Shown here piece by piece: positions 6,233 to 14,918 of a DNA stretch of 64,000 nt. Each line of letters opens with the position of its first letter. Positions within the stretch are counted from its first letter, which is position 1. Both the position numbers and the translations under genes were made by a program. This DNA comes from Flagellimonas meishanensis (GTDB lineage: Bacteria; Bacteroidota; Bacteroidia; Flavobacteriales; Flavobacteriaceae). The DNA lies in assembly GCF_019880545.1 (NCBI RefSeq), contig NZ_JAINVW010000001.1, positions 1,240,001-1,304,000 on the forward strand. The letters are read 5' to 3'. The notes below the pieces were generated by a model. That model was not told the DNA's origin. It saw nothing but the letters and a program-made list of their open reading frames with translations, and did no database searches.

Positions 6233-6964
6233 ATGAAACTACGCACAATCATTGTTGAGGACGAGGCCAATAGTCGGGAGATACTTCGGAACTATTTGGC
6301 CAAGTATTGCAAGGAAGTGGAACTTTTTGGCGAAGCCGCCAATATCGCTGAAGGTTTGAAATTGATACAAAAAAATAATCCCGATCTGGTTTTTTTGGAT
6401 GTAGAAATGCCCTTTGGCAATGCTTTTGATCTTTTAGATCAGGTGCCGGACAGAAACTTTGAGATCATTTTCGTTACGGCCTACAACCAATATGCCATGG
6501 ACGCCCTCAATCAACATGCCGCCTATTATTTGATGAAACCCATTGACATAGATGAACTGGTAAAGGCGGTGGACTACGTCAGGGATGTCAAACAAAAAGA
6601 ACAGGCCCTCGAAGGCCAGGTACTTAAAGCCAAGACCGTTCATACAGAAGGTAAGATTACTTTGCCCCAACAGGATGGATTTCAAGTTTTGGAGGTAGGG
6701 GAGATCTATTTCTGCAAAGCAGATGACAATTACACAGAAATTTATCTGGAAAAAAGAAAGATTGTGGTCAGCAAAACACTGAAATATTTTGAGGATGCCC
6801 TAGCCCCTTATGCATTTGCAAGAATCCATAAATCCTATTTGGTCAATGTAGCGGAAGTGGTTAAGTACAAAAAGGGAAAGGGAGGCAGTGTGGTCCTGTC
6901 CAACGGGAAGGAACTATCCGTTTCAGCGGCTAAAAAATCCAACCTGTTGTCCTATTTTCAGTGA
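6233..6964 (+). CDS. LytTR family response regulator
   Basis: The 243-residue protein has a receiver domain (acidic pocket EDE near residues 9-11, phospho-acceptor Asp56 in LVFLDVEMP, and a conserved Lys in YLMKPIDIDELVKAV). A C-terminal LytTR DNA-binding domain (about 140-243) ends FARIHKSYLVNVAEVVKYKKGKGGSVVLSNGKELSVS, which is diagnostic for the fold. It is the cognate partner of the kinase at 4239. The candidate binding site at 4102-4138 upstream of the operon suggests autoregulation, possibly with control of the divergent VWA gene (inference). Confidence 0.96.
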   Translation: MKLRTIIVEDEANSREILRNYLAKYCKEVELFGEAANIAEGLKLIQKNNPDLVFLDVEMPFGNAFDLLDQVPDRNFEIIFVTAYNQYAMDALNQHAAYYLMKPIDIDELVKAVDYVRDVKQKEQALEGQVLKAKTVHTEGKITLPQQDGFQVLEVGEIYFCKADDNYTEIYLEKRKIVVSKTLKYFEDALAPYAFARIHKSYLVNVAEVVKYKKGKGGSVVLSNGKELSVSAAKKSNLLSYFQ

Positions 6965-7601: not shown

Positions 7602-8483
7602 ATGAAGGCATACATATTTCCTGGCCAGGGAGCGCAATTTGTTGGTATGGGGTTAGACCTGTATGAAAACCATCCAGAGGCACAAGAACTTTTTGAAAAT
7701 GCCAATGAAATTTTGGATTTTTCCATTACCGATATCATGTTCGAAGGTACTCCCGAGGACCTAAAACAGACCAAGGTCACCCAACCGGCGATATTTCTTC
7801 ACTCCGTAATTCTTAGCAAGGTAATGGGAACCGACTTCAAGCCCAATATGGTAGCAGGCCATTCCTTGGGAGAGTTTTCCGCTTTGGTGGCCAATGGCGC
7901 CCTCAATTTTGAAGATGGCTTGAAACTCGTTTCCCAGAGGGCCATGGCCATGCAAAAAGCCTGTGAATTGAAACCAAGTACCATGGCGGCCGTTTTGGGA
8001 CTGGATGATGATGTGGTGGAGAGGATTTGTCAAGAGACCGAGGGCATTGTGGTGCCGGCCAACTATAACTGTCCAGGCCAATTGGTAATTTCTGGCGAGG
8101 TTGATGCCGTGAACACAGCCTGCGAAAAACTCAAGGAGGCGGGAGCGCGTAGAGCGTTGCTATTGCCCGTTGGTGGTGCCTTCCATTCACCATTGATGGA
8201 GCCTGCAAGGGAAGAACTTGCTGCGGCCATAGAGGCAACCGAATTTAAGAAACCCACCTGCCCCATATATCAAAATGTGACTACAACAGCGGTTTCTGAT
8301 CCTGATGAAATCAAGAAAAATTTAATATCCCAACTCACGGCTCCGGTAAAGTGGACCCAAAGTGTGCAGCAAATGATTCAGGACGGTGCCACAACCTTCG
8401 TGGAAGTAGGTCCGGGCAAGGTGCTGCAAGGCTTGGTTAAAAAGATAAACAACGAGGCTGAAACCACTTCGGCAGAGGTGTAA
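7602..8483 (+). CDS. fabD: Malonyl-CoA:ACP transacylase
   Basis: The 293-residue protein opens AYIFPGQGAQFVGMG and contains the active-site Ser88 in GHSLGEFSAL, the catalytic His in GGAFHSPLMEPA, the C-terminal QLTAPVKWTQSV block and a final VEVGPGKVLQGLVK. These are full-length FabD signatures. It transfers the malonyl group from CoA to acyl carrier protein for fatty acid chain extension in the cytoplasm. The 157-base gap downstream contains only a weak AAAGT/ACTTT dyad close to the stop codon. Confidence 0.97.
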   Translation: MKAYIFPGQGAQFVGMGLDLYENHPEAQELFENANEILDFSITDIMFEGTPEDLKQTKVTQPAIFLHSVILSKVMGTDFKPNMVAGHSLGEFSALVANGALNFEDGLKLVSQRAMAMQKACELKPSTMAAVLGLDDDVVERICQETEGIVVPANYNCPGQLVISGEVDAVNTACEKLKEAGARRALLLPVGGAFHSPLMEPAREELAAAIEATEFKKPTCPIYQNVTTTAVSDPDEIKKNLISQLTAPVKWTQSVQQMIQDGATTFVEVGPGKVLQGLVKKINNEAETTSAEV

Positions 8484-8639: not shown

Positions 8640-11600
8640 ATGCTATCAATCCTTAATACAACCTCACCTTCTTTTTTTTCCAGCTATGGAAAGGAAAGCA
8701 TACTGTTCTTAATAATCACGTTTTTTACTTTTAGTTTTGGGTTTGGGCAGTCGAGCATCAGCATAGACAGTCCCGCCCCGGTTGCGGAGGGCGACGGCCC
8801 GGGTGTTAGCACGATCGACTTCACGGTGAGCATCGACGCCTCGGACCCCCTGGCGGACATCACGGTGGACTATTTGATAAGCGGCGGCAACGAGGACGGC
8901 ACGGGCGGCACCCTGACATTTTTGGCTGCCACGGCGACATTGGCCCAGACCGTTAGCGTGACCACCAACGGTGACACTGTTGTGGAGGCCGACGAGCCGG
9001 TGAGCGTGACCCTGAGCAACGCGAGCGCGAACGCCACGATCGCCACCACTGTGGGTAACAGCTCCTTTACCGACGATGACCTGTCCAACATCGGCATAGA
9101 CAGTCCCGTCCCGGTTGCGGAGGGCGACGGCCCGGGTGTTAGCACGATCGACTTCACGGTGAGCATCGACGCCTCGGACCCCCTGGCGGACATCACGGTG
9201 GACTATTTGATAAGCGGCGGCAACGAGGACGGCACGGGCGGCACCCTGACATTTTTGGCTGCCACGGCGACATTGGCCCAGACCGTTAGCGTGACCACCA
9301 ACGGTGACACTGTTGTGGAGGCCGACGAGCCGGTGAGCGTGACCCTGAGCAACGCGAGCGCGAACGCCACGATCGCCACCACTGTGGGTAACAGCTCCTT
9401 TACCGACGATGATGTTGCCGCACTGACTATAGAGGATGTGAACGGTAATGAGGATGATGGTCCTATATTACTTGAAGCAGTTTTGAATAACGCCGTAGCA
9501 GGTGGTTTTTCTGTTCAGGTCTCAACTTCTGACGGAACGGCAACTTTGGCAGATAATGACTACAATGCATTGCTTCAGACGTTGACTTTTGTCGGAACGC
9601 CGGGAGAAATCCAAAACTTTGTGGTGACCCCAGTTGCTGATGCATTGATTGAGGTAGATGAGACTGTTTTGGTTTCAATGAGCAATCTAAATCCAAATGC
9701 ACTTTCAATAAATATTTTGGATACGGCAACGGTTACCATTGATAATGACGACACATGTGCCGCAGGAAATACAGCTCCTGTTTTGGACATAGATGAGACT
9801 ACGGAGTTTTGTGATGCCTTCACCCAAGATTTGGATGATTATACCAATACACCAGCACCACCGGGTTCCGTGCTACAATGGAGTACAAACCCGGACCCAT
9901 TACAAGTTGGGGATCATTTGGTCAATACTACAATTACTGACGACACACCAAGCACCTACTACGGATTTTTCTATGATGCTTTGAACGATTGTGCAAGTCC
10001 CATACTTACTGTTACCATTACCCAGAATTTCACTCCAAATCCTGGAAATACAACCGGGATTGCTCCGTGCAGTAATGCAGGGGATGGCAATACCATAATT
10101 GATTTAGATGATCAAATAGCCAACAATGATTTAGGTACTTGGGCTTTGACCAGCTCACAGCCTGGTTCATCAATCATAATCAACGCCAATAATATAATCA
10201 ACTTTGACGGACAGCCCGAAGGACCTTACATTTTTACCTATACCACCACTGGGGCTATGGCTCCTTGTGTAAACCAAAGTGTGGATTTAACTATAACCGT
10301 AACCGATTGTTCATTACCATGCGATGCTGGAAACTCGGCTCCTCTTTTGGATACTTCGGAACCCACTGAATTTTGCGATACCATCTTGGCCGACCTTGAC
10401 GATTATGTGACCAGCACGGCCCCTGCAGGGAGTGTATTGACCTGGAGTACCAACCCAGACCCGTTGCAAACAGCGGCGCATAGAAACAGTTTGGTCAATG
10501 CACCAGGGTCTTATTTTGGATTCTTTTATGATGATGCCAACGATTGTGCCAGTCCGGTATTGACTGTGTCCTTGATCCGAAACAATACACCAACCATAAC
10601 CGATACCACGGGCGATGTGCGCTGCGGGGAAGGAACGCTGACCTTAAGCGCCGTGGCAAGCGATGTGGTGACCATAAATTGGTATGCCAACCCTACGGGC
10701 GGACCTGTTTTGGGCTCCGGAGGCACTTTTGTGACCCCTTCCATTGCCACTACCACATCCTTTTACGTGGAGGCAACAGCCAATGGTTGCAGCTCTGCCC
10801 GTGTGGAGGTAGTAGCCACGGTAAACCAAAATCCTTCGGCGGGGACACCGACCAATATTGAGGCATGCAACGTTGCTGGAAACGGCGGACCCACCGTTAT
10901 AGATTTGGATGACACTTTAACCGGGGAGGATGCTGGCTCTTGGGCAGTGATAACTGATCCATCAAGTGGAAGTTTGACAATTGGTGCTGGGAACAGTGTT
11001 GATTTTGAAGGCTTGCCAGATGGAGAATACATATTTGAGTACACAACTACTGGGGCGGTGGCGCCATGTAGCAATACTTCGGTTCAGGTGACCATCTCCG
11101 TGAGTGATTGTGTGGTGGATACGGATGGCGATGGTTTGACCAACGGAGAAGAGAATGAATTGGGCACCAATCCCAATAATCCTGACACGGATGGTGATGG
11201 TTTGACAGATGGGGAAGAAGTTCTTGTAGTAGATGACCCGATTACGACGGCAGTTCCCGAAGGGGCCACGGATCCTTTGGATAGTTGCGACCCATTCCTA
11301 ACACCTTCTTGTAATCCAGAGCCCATCGATTTGGCCATAACAAAGGAAGTGAACCGCGAGGAACCTCTTTTAAACAGTAACCTAGCCTTTACCATAACTT
11401 TAGAAAATGCTACCATAGATCGTGTTTTGGACATTCAGGTAAGTGATTTGTTGGACAGCGGCTTTCAATATGTCTCCCATTCTTCCACAAAAGGGCTTTA
11501 TGATCAAATAACAGGAATCTGGTCTATTGATGAACTTAATCCTGAAGAATCCATCTCTCTTGTAATTGATGTGACTGTGGTGGCTTCTGGCCAGCTACAG

Positions 11601-11972
11601 AATACAGCAACCATTATTTCCTCTTTTCCCATTGACGGGGTAAATGATAACAATACAGCCACAGTATCCATTCAGGTAAATCGAAGTCAATGTGAAGATC
11701 CGGGTACAATCTGTAATATCTTTTCTCCCAACGGGGATGGCAAAAATGATTTTCTTGTTTTGGTCGGCCATGAAGGTTTTTCAAACAACAGCTTAGAGAT
11801 TTTCGATCGCTATGGAAACAGCGTTTTCCAAATGGATGCCTACGATAGTAGTTGGGACGGAACGGGAAGCAGTGGCGAGTTGCCCAAGGGCACCTATTTC
11901 TATATTCTGGATTTAGACAGGACCGATGATAACAATGAGGTGATAAAAGGTTGGATTCAAATCATTCGATAA
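8640..11972 (+). CDS. Large multidomain surface protein with type B T9SS sorting domain
   Basis: The 1110-residue protein has an N-terminal hydrophobic export segment ending FSFGFGQ. Two nearly identical Calx-beta-like repeats follow (about 41-151 and 152-262), then a diverged third copy (about 260-375). Next come two related modules opening SAPLLDTSEPTEFCD or TAPVLDIDETTEFCD, and an Ig-like module (TLSAVASDVVTINWYANPTGG). Thrombospondin type 3 calcium repeats (DTDGDGLTNGEE, about 827-862) precede a DUF11 domain (IDLAITKEVN...). The C-terminal gliding-motility/type B sorting domain starts at about 1023 (CNIFSPNGDGKNDFLVL). It should be exported by the type IX system and act at the cell surface, for example as an adhesin. 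The next two genes follow closely and complete a secretion cassette. The first repeats are more GC-rich than the rest of the gene. Confidence 0.93.
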   Translation: MLSILNTTSPSFFSSYGKESILFLIITFFTFSFGFGQSSISIDSPAPVAEGDGPGVSTIDFTVSIDASDPLADITVDYLISGGNEDGTGGTLTFLAATATLAQTVSVTTNGDTVVEADEPVSVTLSNASANATIATTVGNSSFTDDDLSNIGIDSPVPVAEGDGPGVSTIDFTVSIDASDPLADITVDYLISGGNEDGTGGTLTFLAATATLAQTVSVTTNGDTVVEADEPVSVTLSNASANATIATTVGNSSFTDDDVAALTIEDVNGNEDDGPILLEAVLNNAVAGGFSVQVSTSDGTATLADNDYNALLQTLTFVGTPGEIQNFVVTPVADALIEVDETVLVSMSNLNPNALSINILDTATVTIDNDDTCAAGNTAPVLDIDETTEFCDAFTQDLDDYTNTPAPPGSVLQWSTNPDPLQVGDHLVNTTITDDTPSTYYGFFYDALNDCASPILTVTITQNFTPNPGNTTGIAPCSNAGDGNTIIDLDDQIANNDLGTWALTSSQPGSSIIINANNIINFDGQPEGPYIFTYTTTGAMAPCVNQSVDLTITVTDCSLPCDAGNSAPLLDTSEPTEFCDTILADLDDYVTSTAPAGSVLTWSTNPDPLQTAAHRNSLVNAPGSYFGFFYDDANDCASPVLTVSLIRNNTPTITDTTGDVRCGEGTLTLSAVASDVVTINWYANPTGGPVLGSGGTFVTPSIATTTSFYVEATANGCSSARVEVVATVNQNPSAGTPTNIEACNVAGNGGPTVIDLDDTLTGEDAGSWAVITDPSSGSLTIGAGNSVDFEGLPDGEYIFEYTTTGAVAPCSNTSVQVTISVSDCVVDTDGDGLTNGEENELGTNPNNPDTDGDGLTDGEEVLVVDDPITTAVPEGATDPLDSCDPFLTPSCNPEPIDLAITKEVNREEPLLNSNLAFTITLENATIDRVLDIQVSDLLDSGFQYVSHSSTKGLYDQITGIWSIDELNPEESISLVIDVTVVASGQLQNTATIISSFPIDGVNDNNTATVSIQVNRSQCEDPGTICNIFSPNGDGKNDFLVLVGHEGFSNNSLEIFDRYGNSVFQMDAYDSSWDGTGSSGELPKGTYFYILDLDRTDDNNEVIKGWIQIIR
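8761..9412 (+). repeat. Near-perfect tandem duplication, 333-bp period, inside the surface protein gene
   Basis: Bases 8761-9079 recur at 9094-9412. Reading both copies side by side I found a single difference (C at 8776, T at 9109, changing Ala to Val). Each unit encodes 111 residues of a Calx-beta-like domain. Codons here are strikingly GC-rich (runs such as GCGGCGGCAACGAGGACGG) compared with the AT-rich sequence from 9420 onward. The near identity at silent sites points to recent duplication or ongoing gene conversion. Confidence 0.95.
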
Positions 11973-11992
11973 AAAGACAAATGCCCCAAATA

Positions 11993-12973
11993 ATGAAATA
12001 CAGATCAATGAAAATGTTTTTAGCCCTTTGGCTTTTGGCAATTACATTGGTCATAGCCCAAAAGGAACCCCAGTACACCCAGTACATGTACAATATAGGC
12101 AGTTTTAACCCGGCCTACGTGGGCACGGTGGAGAGCGCCGAGGCTGCAGGATTGTACCGGGCCCAATGGATTGACATTCCTGGGGCGCCGACAACCATCC
12201 GGTTTGGGGCCAACATTCCATTTGGGGACGACAGGACCGGTTTGGGACTTAATATTGTCAATGATGAACTGGGACCGTCCAACCAAACCTATATCGATGT
12301 TTCCTATTCCTACCAAATCAGCCTTTCTGATGACACAAAGCTTTCTTTCGGATTGGCCGCAGGTGGATCTTTGCTTAGTTTGGATTATTCCGAAGGGTCG
12401 TTCGTAGATCCTTCAGACCCTACAATCACAGGCGAAAATCTCAGCAATTTTTATCCGACAGTTGGAGCCGGATTATTTTTATATGGGGAAGAAGAATGGT
12501 ATTTGGGGGTTTCCGTTCCCAATTTTTTGACGAATGGTCTGTACAACGAGGAAGTGGCTACCATTGTTGAGGACAACCTGCAGTTCAATGCCATCGGCGG
12601 ATATGTGTTTCAATTGGCGGACCGAACCAAGTTCAAGCCCGCATTTTTGATCAATTATCTACAGGGATCTCCCGTAAATGTGAACCTATCGGCCAATTTC
12701 CAGTTTATTGACGCCCTTACCATTGGAGCCGCTTATCGATTTGACAATGCGGTGAGTGGACTGGCAGGGTTCCAGATTTCCAATGCGATGTTCTTGGGAT
12801 ATTCCTATGATTACAATACCAACGGGCTCGGAGAGTTCAGTGGGGGTTCCCATGAGGCCATCCTGAAATTTTATATTGGCCGTGGTGGATTTGGCGCGAG
12901 CAATAAATCGAAGACCAAGAGCAAAAAACTAAAAGGCAAACCAAAACAAATAGATTCCCCAAGATTTTTCTAA
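11993..12973 (+). CDS. PorP/SprF family T9SS outer membrane protein, partner of the surface protein
   Basis: The start is taken at ATG 11993 (MKYRSMKMFLALWLLAITLVIAQ); ATGs at 11981, 12008 and 12014 are alternatives. The mature part opens with the classic family motif KEPQYTQYMYNIGSFNPAYVGT and continues as a beta-strand-rich outer membrane protein (326 residues). A basic tail (KSKTKSKKLKGKPK) closes it. Family members are needed for secretion or attachment of one neighbouring T9SS type B substrate, as SprF is for SprB in Flavobacterium johnsoniae. It starts 20 bases after the surface protein gene and ends one base before the OmpA gene, a tight operon. Confidence 0.95.
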   Translation: MKYRSMKMFLALWLLAITLVIAQKEPQYTQYMYNIGSFNPAYVGTVESAEAAGLYRAQWIDIPGAPTTIRFGANIPFGDDRTGLGLNIVNDELGPSNQTYIDVSYSYQISLSDDTKLSFGLAAGGSLLSLDYSEGSFVDPSDPTITGENLSNFYPTVGAGLFLYGEEEWYLGVSVPNFLTNGLYNEEVATIVEDNLQFNAIGGYVFQLADRTKFKPAFLINYLQGSPVNVNLSANFQFIDALTIGAAYRFDNAVSGLAGFQISNAMFLGYSYDYNTNGLGEFSGGSHEAILKFYIGRGGFGASNKSKTKSKKLKGKPKQIDSPRFF

Positions 12974-12974
12974 C

Positions 12975-14918
12975 ATGGACCCGATAAAAAAAACAATTCC
13001 CCTATTTCTTGCCTTTCTTTTGGGTGCGGTGTTTGCTTTTGCCCAAGAAGGGTACTCCAAGGGGGATGGCCACTTTTTTCAGTATGACTACCAAAGCGCA
13101 GTAACAGCTTACGAGACGGATTTGCTCAAGCAGGGACTCACAGATCGGCAATGGTTCAATCTGGCGGAATCCTATTTCAAGACAAAACGCTATGAAAAAG
13201 CGGCCGAAGCATACATAAACCTCCATAAGAAAGGAGCGGTAATGGAACCACATCATTTGAACAAGATGATGCAGTGTCTATCAAAAACATCGGACAAGGA
13301 AAGAAAAAATGCCTTTCTGGCTACCCTGTCCACCAATTTTGACAAGGAGTTGTTGGAGAACATGGACTTCAATAACAACCTATTGGAGAACAGTTCCGGA
13401 AAAACCACGCTCGATTTTGAAGTTTTCAACCTGGAGGGGAACAGCGCACAAGCCGACTTTGCACCGGCCTTTTACAACAAAAAGTTGTTGTTTTCCAGTG
13501 GAAGGATACAACAAAAAAAGGGTAGGGCCACTTCCCAAGAAGGCTTTCTCAATATTTATGATGCCAATTTGAAGCCTAATGGTCAGGTCGGTACGGCACA
13601 GCCATTTGCCAAAATCCCTGCTTCCAAGTTCCATAAGGCCACACCCTATTTCTCCCAGGGCCTGAACAGTGTTTTGTTTGTGATGTCCAATACCGAGGAT
13701 GGGGAGCTAGCTTTTGATTCCAAAGGGAAAAATGCCTTGGCCATAGGTATGCAGACCCTGGACGGTTCTTTTCGCTTGTTGTTGAAGGACCTGAGCACCT
13801 CGTTCTATTATCCTTTTTATGATGAGGCAAGCGGCAAACTATATTTCGCGGCCAATTTCGACGATGGCTACGGTGGTACAGATCTGTATTTTGTGTACAC
13901 TAATAATGGACAGATCATGTCGGCACCCATCAACTTGGGGCCGAGGATAAATTCACCCGGAAACGAAATAGCCCCGTTTATTTTTGAGGACAGTTTTTAT
14001 TTTGCATCCGACATATTTTACGGTTTGGGGGGAATGGATATCTACAAATCCAATATTGAAGATGAATCCTTCAGTATTCCCATCAATTTGGGAGAGGGAA
14101 TCAACTCCCAGGAAGATGATTTTGGTCTGATCATGCGGAATGAAGGGGATGGACTTTTGGGGTATTTTGCATCCAATCGACTTGGCGGTAAGGGGAAGGA
14201 TGATCTGTACGGGTTCAAGGTGGACGAAAAACCCGGACTCAAAACACTGATCGTAAAGGGAAAGACGATAAAGCCGTACAAATCTTCCGAAACCATATCC
14301 AAGGCAGCAATTAGATTGTTGAAGCCCGACGGGACCTTGCTTTCCGAAACATATTCGGATGAAGAGGGAAATTATAGGTTGGAGATACCCTGGGAAAACG
14401 AAGTGGTGATTGAATCCTCCAAAGAGCGATATTCCCTTTTTAGAAAAAAGCTATCCGAAGAGGAACTGAACGCTTTGGAAAACAACGGATATGACATAGA
14501 AATTGCCCTTTACGATGATTTAGTGGAAGAAAAAGAGGGGCAAAAAGTGGTGAAAATGGACGATTTCTTTTTTGAGAAAGGCCAAACAACGCTTACTCCG
14601 CAGATCCAGCAGGAATTGGACAAAGTGGCATTCTTTGTGGAACAGTTTCCCTCTGTGCAGTTGCGTATTGAAACCTATACGGACAGTCGTGGAGGGAGCA
14701 GTACCAATTTTAGATTGACTCAGTCGCGCTCAGATGCCATTAAACAATATCTATTGAAAAAAGGGGTGTCTCCCACCAATATCATTTATTCCATAGGTTA
14801 TGGTGAGGAAAAAATCCTGAACAATTGCACCAATGGTGTCTTTTGCCTGGAAGTTCTTCACAAAAAGAACCAAAGGTCGTTGGTGGTGGTGCTCAATGAC
14901 AATGTGCTCTTCGACTAG
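12975..14918 (+). CDS. OmpA family protein with TPR and PD40 repeats
   Basis: This 647-residue envelope protein has a signal peptide (IPLFLAFLLGAVFAFAQ), an N-terminal TPR region (about 25-130), WD40-like PD40 propeller repeats (about 150-410), and a carboxypeptidase-regulatory-like beta sandwich (about 425-490). A C-terminal OmpA peptidoglycan-binding domain (about 530-647) contains ETYTDSRGGSSTNFRLTQSRSDAIKQYL, including the Asp and Arg that bind diaminopimelate. Such proteins anchor T9SS-associated complexes to the cell wall. It is the third gene of the cassette begun at 8640. It converges with the Nramp gene with no gap at all, so the two stop codons abut. Confidence 0.94.
   Translation: MDPIKKTIPLFLAFLLGAVFAFAQEGYSKGDGHFFQYDYQSAVTAYETDLLKQGLTDRQWFNLAESYFKTKRYEKAAEAYINLHKKGAVMEPHHLNKMMQCLSKTSDKERKNAFLATLSTNFDKELLENMDFNNNLLENSSGKTTLDFEVFNLEGNSAQADFAPAFYNKKLLFSSGRIQQKKGRATSQEGFLNIYDANLKPNGQVGTAQPFAKIPASKFHKATPYFSQGLNSVLFVMSNTEDGELAFDSKGKNALAIGMQTLDGSFRLLLKDLSTSFYYPFYDEASGKLYFAANFDDGYGGTDLYFVYTNNGQIMSAPINLGPRINSPGNEIAPFIFEDSFYFASDIFYGLGGMDIYKSNIEDESFSIPINLGEGINSQEDDFGLIMRNEGDGLLGYFASNRLGGKGKDDLYGFKVDEKPGLKTLIVKGKTIKPYKSSETISKAAIRLLKPDGTLLSETYSDEEGNYRLEIPWENEVVIESSKERYSLFRKKLSEEELNALENNGYDIEIALYDDLVEEKEGQKVVKMDDFFFEKGQTTLTPQIQQELDKVAFFVEQFPSVQLRIETYTDSRGGSSTNFRLTQSRSDAIKQYLLKKGVSPTNIIYSIGYGEEKILNNCTNGVFCLEVLHKKNQRSLVVVLNDNVLFD

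Follow-up and report, generated by a model that had tools for sequence, protein, structure and literature searches.

Periscope proteins, as described in passages of PMC8201768 and PMC9704523, are surface proteins which, like the one analysed here, carry long series of tandemly repeated domains with very high identity at the DNA level, in variable copy number; recombination is proposed as the cause of this variation, and short reads fail on such arrays. A second point of reference within the Bacteroidetes is SprB and related proteins with a type B C-terminal domain (CTD), which share with the present locus a type B sorting domain and an adjacent PorP/SprF gene; according to parts of PMC9143113, SprF is bound to SprB, PorP to PG1035, and the type B cargo of other Bacteroidetes to PorP-like proteins. 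As for base composition, Lassalle et al. 2015 (PMC4450053, in the passages concerned) found that GC3 goes up with recombination via non-optimal GC-ending codons, against AU-ending optimal ones; GC-biased gene conversion in bacteria is disputed (passages of PMC8223754 and PMC6867656). The dispute arises chiefly from the many other differences between genes that recombine and genes that do not.

In the window (the whole stretch of 64,000 nucleotides of Flagellimonas meishanensis DNA that was analysed), TRF identifies a sole array, located near the 5' end of a surface-protein gene. The features of this region are:

7602-8483, + strand: fabD, the conserved upstream neighbour in the genus (TIGR00128, 349 bits, cut-off 260.9)
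8640-11972, + strand: surface-protein gene, 1110 aa, with a T9SS type B sorting signal (ORF; TIGR04131, 62.9 bits, cut-off 35)
8640-8750, + strand: probable signal peptide, residues 1-37 (translation judged by eye)
8756-9412, + strand: homogenised tandem array (TRF: period 333 bp, 2.0 copies, 99% matches)
8761-9093, + strand: Calx-beta unit 1 (319-bp block plus 14-bp spacer, GC3 0.83)
9094-9412, + strand: Calx-beta unit 2 (1 base off unit 1)
9423-9752, + strand: third, diverged Calx-beta domain, residues 262-371 (PF03160; GC3 about 0.35)
10587-10826, + strand: Ig_7 (CHU_C-associated) domain (PF19081)
11328-11672, + strand: DUF11 domain (PF01345)
11712-11969, + strand: T9SS type B C-terminal sorting domain, residues 1025-1110 (TIGR04131)
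11951-12973, + strand: PorP/SprF-family membrane protein (TIGR03519, 253.8 bits, cut-off 90.55; PF11751)
12975-14918, + strand: OmpA-domain protein (PF00691; PorE and CHU_0125 models below their cut-offs)

A gene for a LytR-type response regulator (6233-6964; best models below cut-offs) lies two genes before fabD.

The 1110-residue protein has Pfam matches to CHU_C, DUF11, Ig_7, Calx-beta and TSP3_bac, with PF13585 scoring 91.3 bits, and it combines two features of T9SS type B cargo, namely the C-terminal sorting domain (TIGR04131) and a PorP/SprF gene next door (TIGR03519), whose product is likely to be the anchoring partner of the surface protein. PF03160 scores 48.9 bits on the whole protein and 25.4 on the two near-identical units alone, against a cut-off of 27. 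The relationship to the Calx-beta domains of Na/Ca exchangers is visible both in a profile match to 3us9 (E 2.9e-11, 20% identity) and in the structure that AlphaFold predicts for the unit (pLDDT 85.6), whose best PDB matches are NCX/CALX CBD domains, led by CBD1 (calcium-binding domain 1) of 3gin (TM 0.71); as modelled, the repeat unit has a Calx-beta fold. The units begin about 5 residues past the probable signal peptide, and the two copies belong to a Calx-beta array of variable length, located N-terminally in this T9SS type B surface protein.

Blocks 8761-9079 and 9094-9412, described as near-identical in an earlier note on this DNA, indeed differ by a single base out of 319, position 8776 being C in copy 1 and its counterpart T in copy 2, which changes Ala to Val in the translation. 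The GC excess of both copies that was noted at the same time is equally clear: GC is 0.636 and GC3 0.824 over the array (8763-9410), as against 0.458 and 0.416 over the remainder of the gene 3' of it, and GC3 of the diverged third copy (9414-9755) is 0.35. Followed in 25-codon steps, GC3 is 0.36 at 8640, 0.68-0.92 over 8790-9389 and 0.28-0.44 from 9465 to 9764; sliding 333-bp windows over the 20 other ORFs of the window have a mean GC3 of 0.52 (sd 0.055) and a maximum of 0.66. When the 652-bp array stretch is searched as DNA against its own genome it matches itself only, and the assembly has neither a contig break nor an N inside the gene, one or the other being found in 30 of the 70 gene-carrying genomes of the genus.

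Flagellimonas/Allomuricauda is a largely marine genus. The C-terminal part of the protein is found in 70 of its 71 genomes, as is fabD, the one genome without either match (G059) being 71% complete, and the two genes stand side by side in all 47 unsplit loci. Unit DNA is recognisable in 15 of the 71 genomes, our own counted. By unit profile, the 47 unsplit genes hold 0-12 full units each, some of these numbers being minima because eight of the genes contain runs of 86-155 N; two unsplit genes that lack these units have a different type of repeat, and both period (297-369 bp) and copy number differ in the arrays of other species. The adhesin length variation that had been suggested between strains is accordingly borne out at the level of species, among which copy number at this fixed locus is not constant.

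The assembly is split inside the gene in 22 of 70 genomes (a count that leaves out G054, whose break lies in fabD), with the fabD contig stopping soon after fabD and the remainder of the gene opening another contig. Among the 40 genomes with 20 contigs or fewer, 11 are split at the gene, compared with 0.39 expected if breaks were even (contig numbers being rounded). Split ends are richer in GC3 than the last 500 codons on 20 of the 22 5' sides and on 20 of the 22 3' sides, again without G054; moreover, the two ends overlap exactly, over 55-304 bp, in five of the 22 pairs, and 11 pairs include an end that is 90% or more repeated. In many of the genomes, though not demonstrably in all, the splits are probably due to long identical arrays.

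Across the genus, GC follows homogenisation, measured as the best identity of each 99-bp stretch to another stretch, not overlapping it, within its gene, with N masked. GC3 is 0.38, 0.36 and 0.39 at best in-gene identities of <0.5, 0.5-0.6 and 0.6-0.7, respectively, and 0.48, 0.59, 0.66 and 0.68 at 0.7-0.8, 0.8-0.9, 0.9-0.97 and >0.97, averaging 0.69 in near-identical and 0.39 in diverged stretches; GC at positions 1 and 2 also climbs with in-gene identity, reaching 0.54 from a starting level of 0.48. When parts of one gene are compared with each other, GC3 is higher in the homogenised part in 34 of 36 gene pieces, corresponding to 32 of 34 genomes (p 2e-9, a kind of value that overstates independence because the genomes of the genus are related), with the reverse direction in two genomes, G007 and G042, and the remaining 36 of the 70 having too few homogenised or diverged stretches. 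The same holds in 20 of 22 cases when only unsplit genes without N runs are considered and, when whole units are compared, in 18 of 19 genes. At 50% amino-acid identity, the homogenised units of 22 genes make up six families, and all five testable ones agree, the weakest (GC3 0.44 vs 0.35) being that of the G007 and G042 arrays; parsimony places 21 changes of the homogenised state on a tree of 247 units. In the array of G049, unit GC3 runs in order 0.25, 0.74, 0.72, 0.69, 0.62 and 0.35, the 0.62 unit being just 75% like its neighbour, and GC-rich units without an assembled partner exist in G055 (0.79) and G051 (0.69). Among the variable third positions within arrays, 185 have G/C in the majority and 112 have A/T, adjacent sites being non-independent and such a majority being expected alike under GC bias, selection or decay.

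Elsewhere in the genus, 26 further loci were analysed, of which 19 hold no homogenised array and seven do (Calx-beta, HYR and others). All seven of these arrays exceed the remainder of their gene in GC3, by +0.36 on average; orthologous pairs are probably among them, which leaves fewer than seven independent arrays. In eleven long repeat ORFs of 2973-3526 aa that lack homogenised stretches, their repeats being at most 71-83% alike, GC3 is 0.25-0.42. In other genera, 55 loci yielded 26 arrays, 16 of them richer in GC3 and 10 not (mean +0.06, p 0.014), with ten above +0.1 and one below -0.1; relative to neighbouring genes, 10 of 23 are richer. A class-wide Calx-beta sample contributed one usable array among 20 loci. 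Because it is weak and mixed outside the genus, the strong effect is to be taken as a feature of Flagellimonas as sampled and, for the same reason, the mechanism as one that we infer.

Some of these loci can be described further. L211 (G038:C1:437000-456900) covers part of an ORF of 5591 aa in which HYR arrays are nested, with periods from 249 to 2484 bp and a GC3 of 0.72 vs 0.22; L212 (G028:C54:1-6500) is a contig-start gene whose homogenised repeat is of a different kind, 225 bp long (GC3 0.78 vs 0.35); and L213-L223 are eleven paralogous T9SS-type ORFs of other species with diverged repeats. In another genus, the homogenised 207-bp repeat of L252 (G398:C6:1-10083) lies at the opposite extreme, being much richer in AT than its gene (GC3 0.09 vs 0.21).

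The two copies have almost certainly been homogenised within the genome, judging from sequence comparison: copies resemble one another much more closely within a genome than between sister species, with 1 of 319 bp different inside the array while the unit of the sister species is 86% identical at the DNA level. This result supports active homogenisation (by gene conversion or unequal exchange), active gene conversion being one of the two origins that the earlier note had considered. The evidence on recombination consists of homogenisation as its sign, no recombination event itself having been observed. We propose that RecA-type recombination between adjacent repeats would add, remove and overwrite copies through unequal exchange and gene conversion, and that each exchange would produce heteroduplex DNA with mismatches repaired towards G:C; because of this repair, a stretch in continued recombination would climb to a GC3 of about 0.7-0.8, and copies out of exchange would gradually return to the gene's own AT-rich composition. 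That GC-biased repair, i.e. GC-biased gene conversion, is what causes the GC of the array is the novel part of this explanation, and we regard it as evenly balanced between right and wrong. The general proposition, that Flagellimonas tandem coding repeats act as hot spots for gene conversion with a strong GC bias, raising GC3 from about 0.4 to 0.7-0.8 and overriding codon preference, is put forward tentatively, as one that falls somewhat short of an even chance.

A shared recombination motif was considered as well and rejected, for the 7-10-mers common to the arrays look like common codons of conserved residues (examples occur in 17 of 22 genomes in the case of arrays and in 6 in that of diverged units).

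The strongest rival is selection on composition, which could keep recombining arrays GC-rich for the sake of, for example, stable pairing in repair, mRNA structure or slow translation, and would make array GC an adaptation and no by-product of repair; we hold it to be rather unlikely, and codon usage bears on it from both sides. The GC-rich copies do use other codons, as had been pointed out, and the array codon shift follows GC-ending (r 0.79) and runs away from ribosomal-operon usage (r -0.50; GC3 0.40, in an uncurated set of all ORFs of at least 90 aa in 14-kb stretches around rplB from 19 genomes). Array codons are rare in ribosomal-operon genes, as selection could have it, and this includes the Ile codon ATA, whose share increases against the GC trend (0.24 in window ORFs, 0.30 in diverged units and 0.46 in the homogenised units of 22 genus genes, 8763-9412 among them), a rise that runs against the prediction of GC bias. 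However, the rare codons TTA, TCA and TCT do not rise in arrays and CTA does so slightly, whereas AAC, common in ribosomal-operon genes, does rise; GC-ending alone explains 62% of the shift, ribosomal frequency 25%. A published GC-tethering idea, which in the relevant part of PMC6867656 ties DNA breaks to selection for GC, lends selection some plausibility, as does an effect strong in one genus and weak elsewhere, like a lineage-specific trait; against this, the shift is present in domains as unrelated as Calx-beta, HYR and the 225-bp repeat. Codon selection for high expression, a separate candidate, is rejected because ribosomal-operon genes prefer the opposite codons.

Reverse causation, whereby units that are GC-rich by chance would recombine more readily and hence stay identical, predicts the same within-gene correlation, but leaves unexplained both where a GC3 of 0.7-0.8 comes from in genes that are otherwise at 0.39 and how high GC persists through heavy synonymous turnover, and we consider it improbable.

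Recent import of a module as the cause of high GC, one of the two possibilities that the earlier note had raised, finds no support. Under such a scenario, GC-rich modules would have been imported and then duplicated, the diverged copies being older and ameliorated, and young copies would likewise be GC-rich; but a GC-rich unit family occupies the same locus in relatives (GC3 0.81 in the sister species G026, 0.71 in G045, 0.74 in G063 and 0.72 in G040). Between our own unit and that of G026, 24 of 53 fourfold sites differ (about 45%), so that these sites are near saturation with GC still high (GC3 >0.8 in both), and third-position changes on the two branches are balanced, seven to GC and six to AT. 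In the wider unit family, parsimony counts 118 GC-to-AT vs 63 AT-to-GC changes, an excess that at face value speaks for import. Its ratio of 1.87 is, however, covered by a simulation on the same tree with stationarity at 0.71, which yields 1.99 (1.22-3.10), whereas simulated decay models yield 1.12 (0.74-1.70), 1.11 (0.80-1.55) and 1.32 (0.77-2.30), the third of which (to GC3 0.50) also covers it, and arrive at a mean tip GC3 of 0.62-0.66 vs 0.70 observed. No close GC-rich donor of the unit was found in a sample of 395 genomes of the phylum, where six other genomes have any match and the nearest unit outside our own genome, in G396 from another genus of the family, has 57% aa identity; this homologue, listed with one match (a single copy), has a GC3 of 0.24, with 0.34 and 0.29 beside it. 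A search of the unit against a plasmid collection gave no match. Import would furthermore require repeated GC-rich arrivals at several loci of one genus. Recent import as the main cause of GC is therefore rejected, with the caveat that the decay model to GC3 0.50 fits the ratio; import followed by duplication is very improbable overall, and there may have been an import older than the genus.

That the duplication or its copy number is an assembly artefact, as the 22 of 70 assemblies split in the gene and the eight more with N runs might suggest, is hardly credible, since such failures imply that the true arrays are long and identical, and genomes assembled into one or two contigs have arrays as well (ten copies in G013, seven in G034).

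If tandem coding repeats are hot spots of GC-biased gene conversion, each adhesin gene is its own controlled experiment, in which recombining and non-recombining copies of the same domain lie next to each other and are subject to one promoter, one mutation rate and the same selection; genera would then vary in how strong the bias is, possibly according to the mismatch-repair enzymes that they have. High GC in part of a repeat protein does not on its own indicate foreign DNA, and the failure of short-read assemblies at such arrays is a warning. Among the titles listed by term searches of one open-access library, none deals with the GC of homogenised bacterial coding repeats, an absence that such searches leave unproven.

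In summary, the surface protein works like a periscope protein, having near-identical tandem repeats whose number varies between species, yet it is not classed as one because its units start right after the probable signal peptide, with no distinct N-terminal ligand-binding domain before them: in periscope proteins, according to the passages cited above, the repeats project such a domain, whereas here the array itself follows the probable signal peptide, and anchoring is through LPXTG there and the T9SS here. The passages on periscope proteins in PMC8201768 are silent on GC. Despite its type B sorting domain and PorP/SprF neighbour, the protein is not SprB by any test made. With regard to GC-biased gene conversion, GC rises with homogenisation in 32 of 34 genomes and at 7 of 7 other loci, and optimal codons do not explain the shift, ATA being the one exception; while the portion of PMC4450053 cited above compares genes of a species, the comparison here is between repeats within single genes, and its effect is large and recurs, at a fixed locus as well as at others, in dozens of species.
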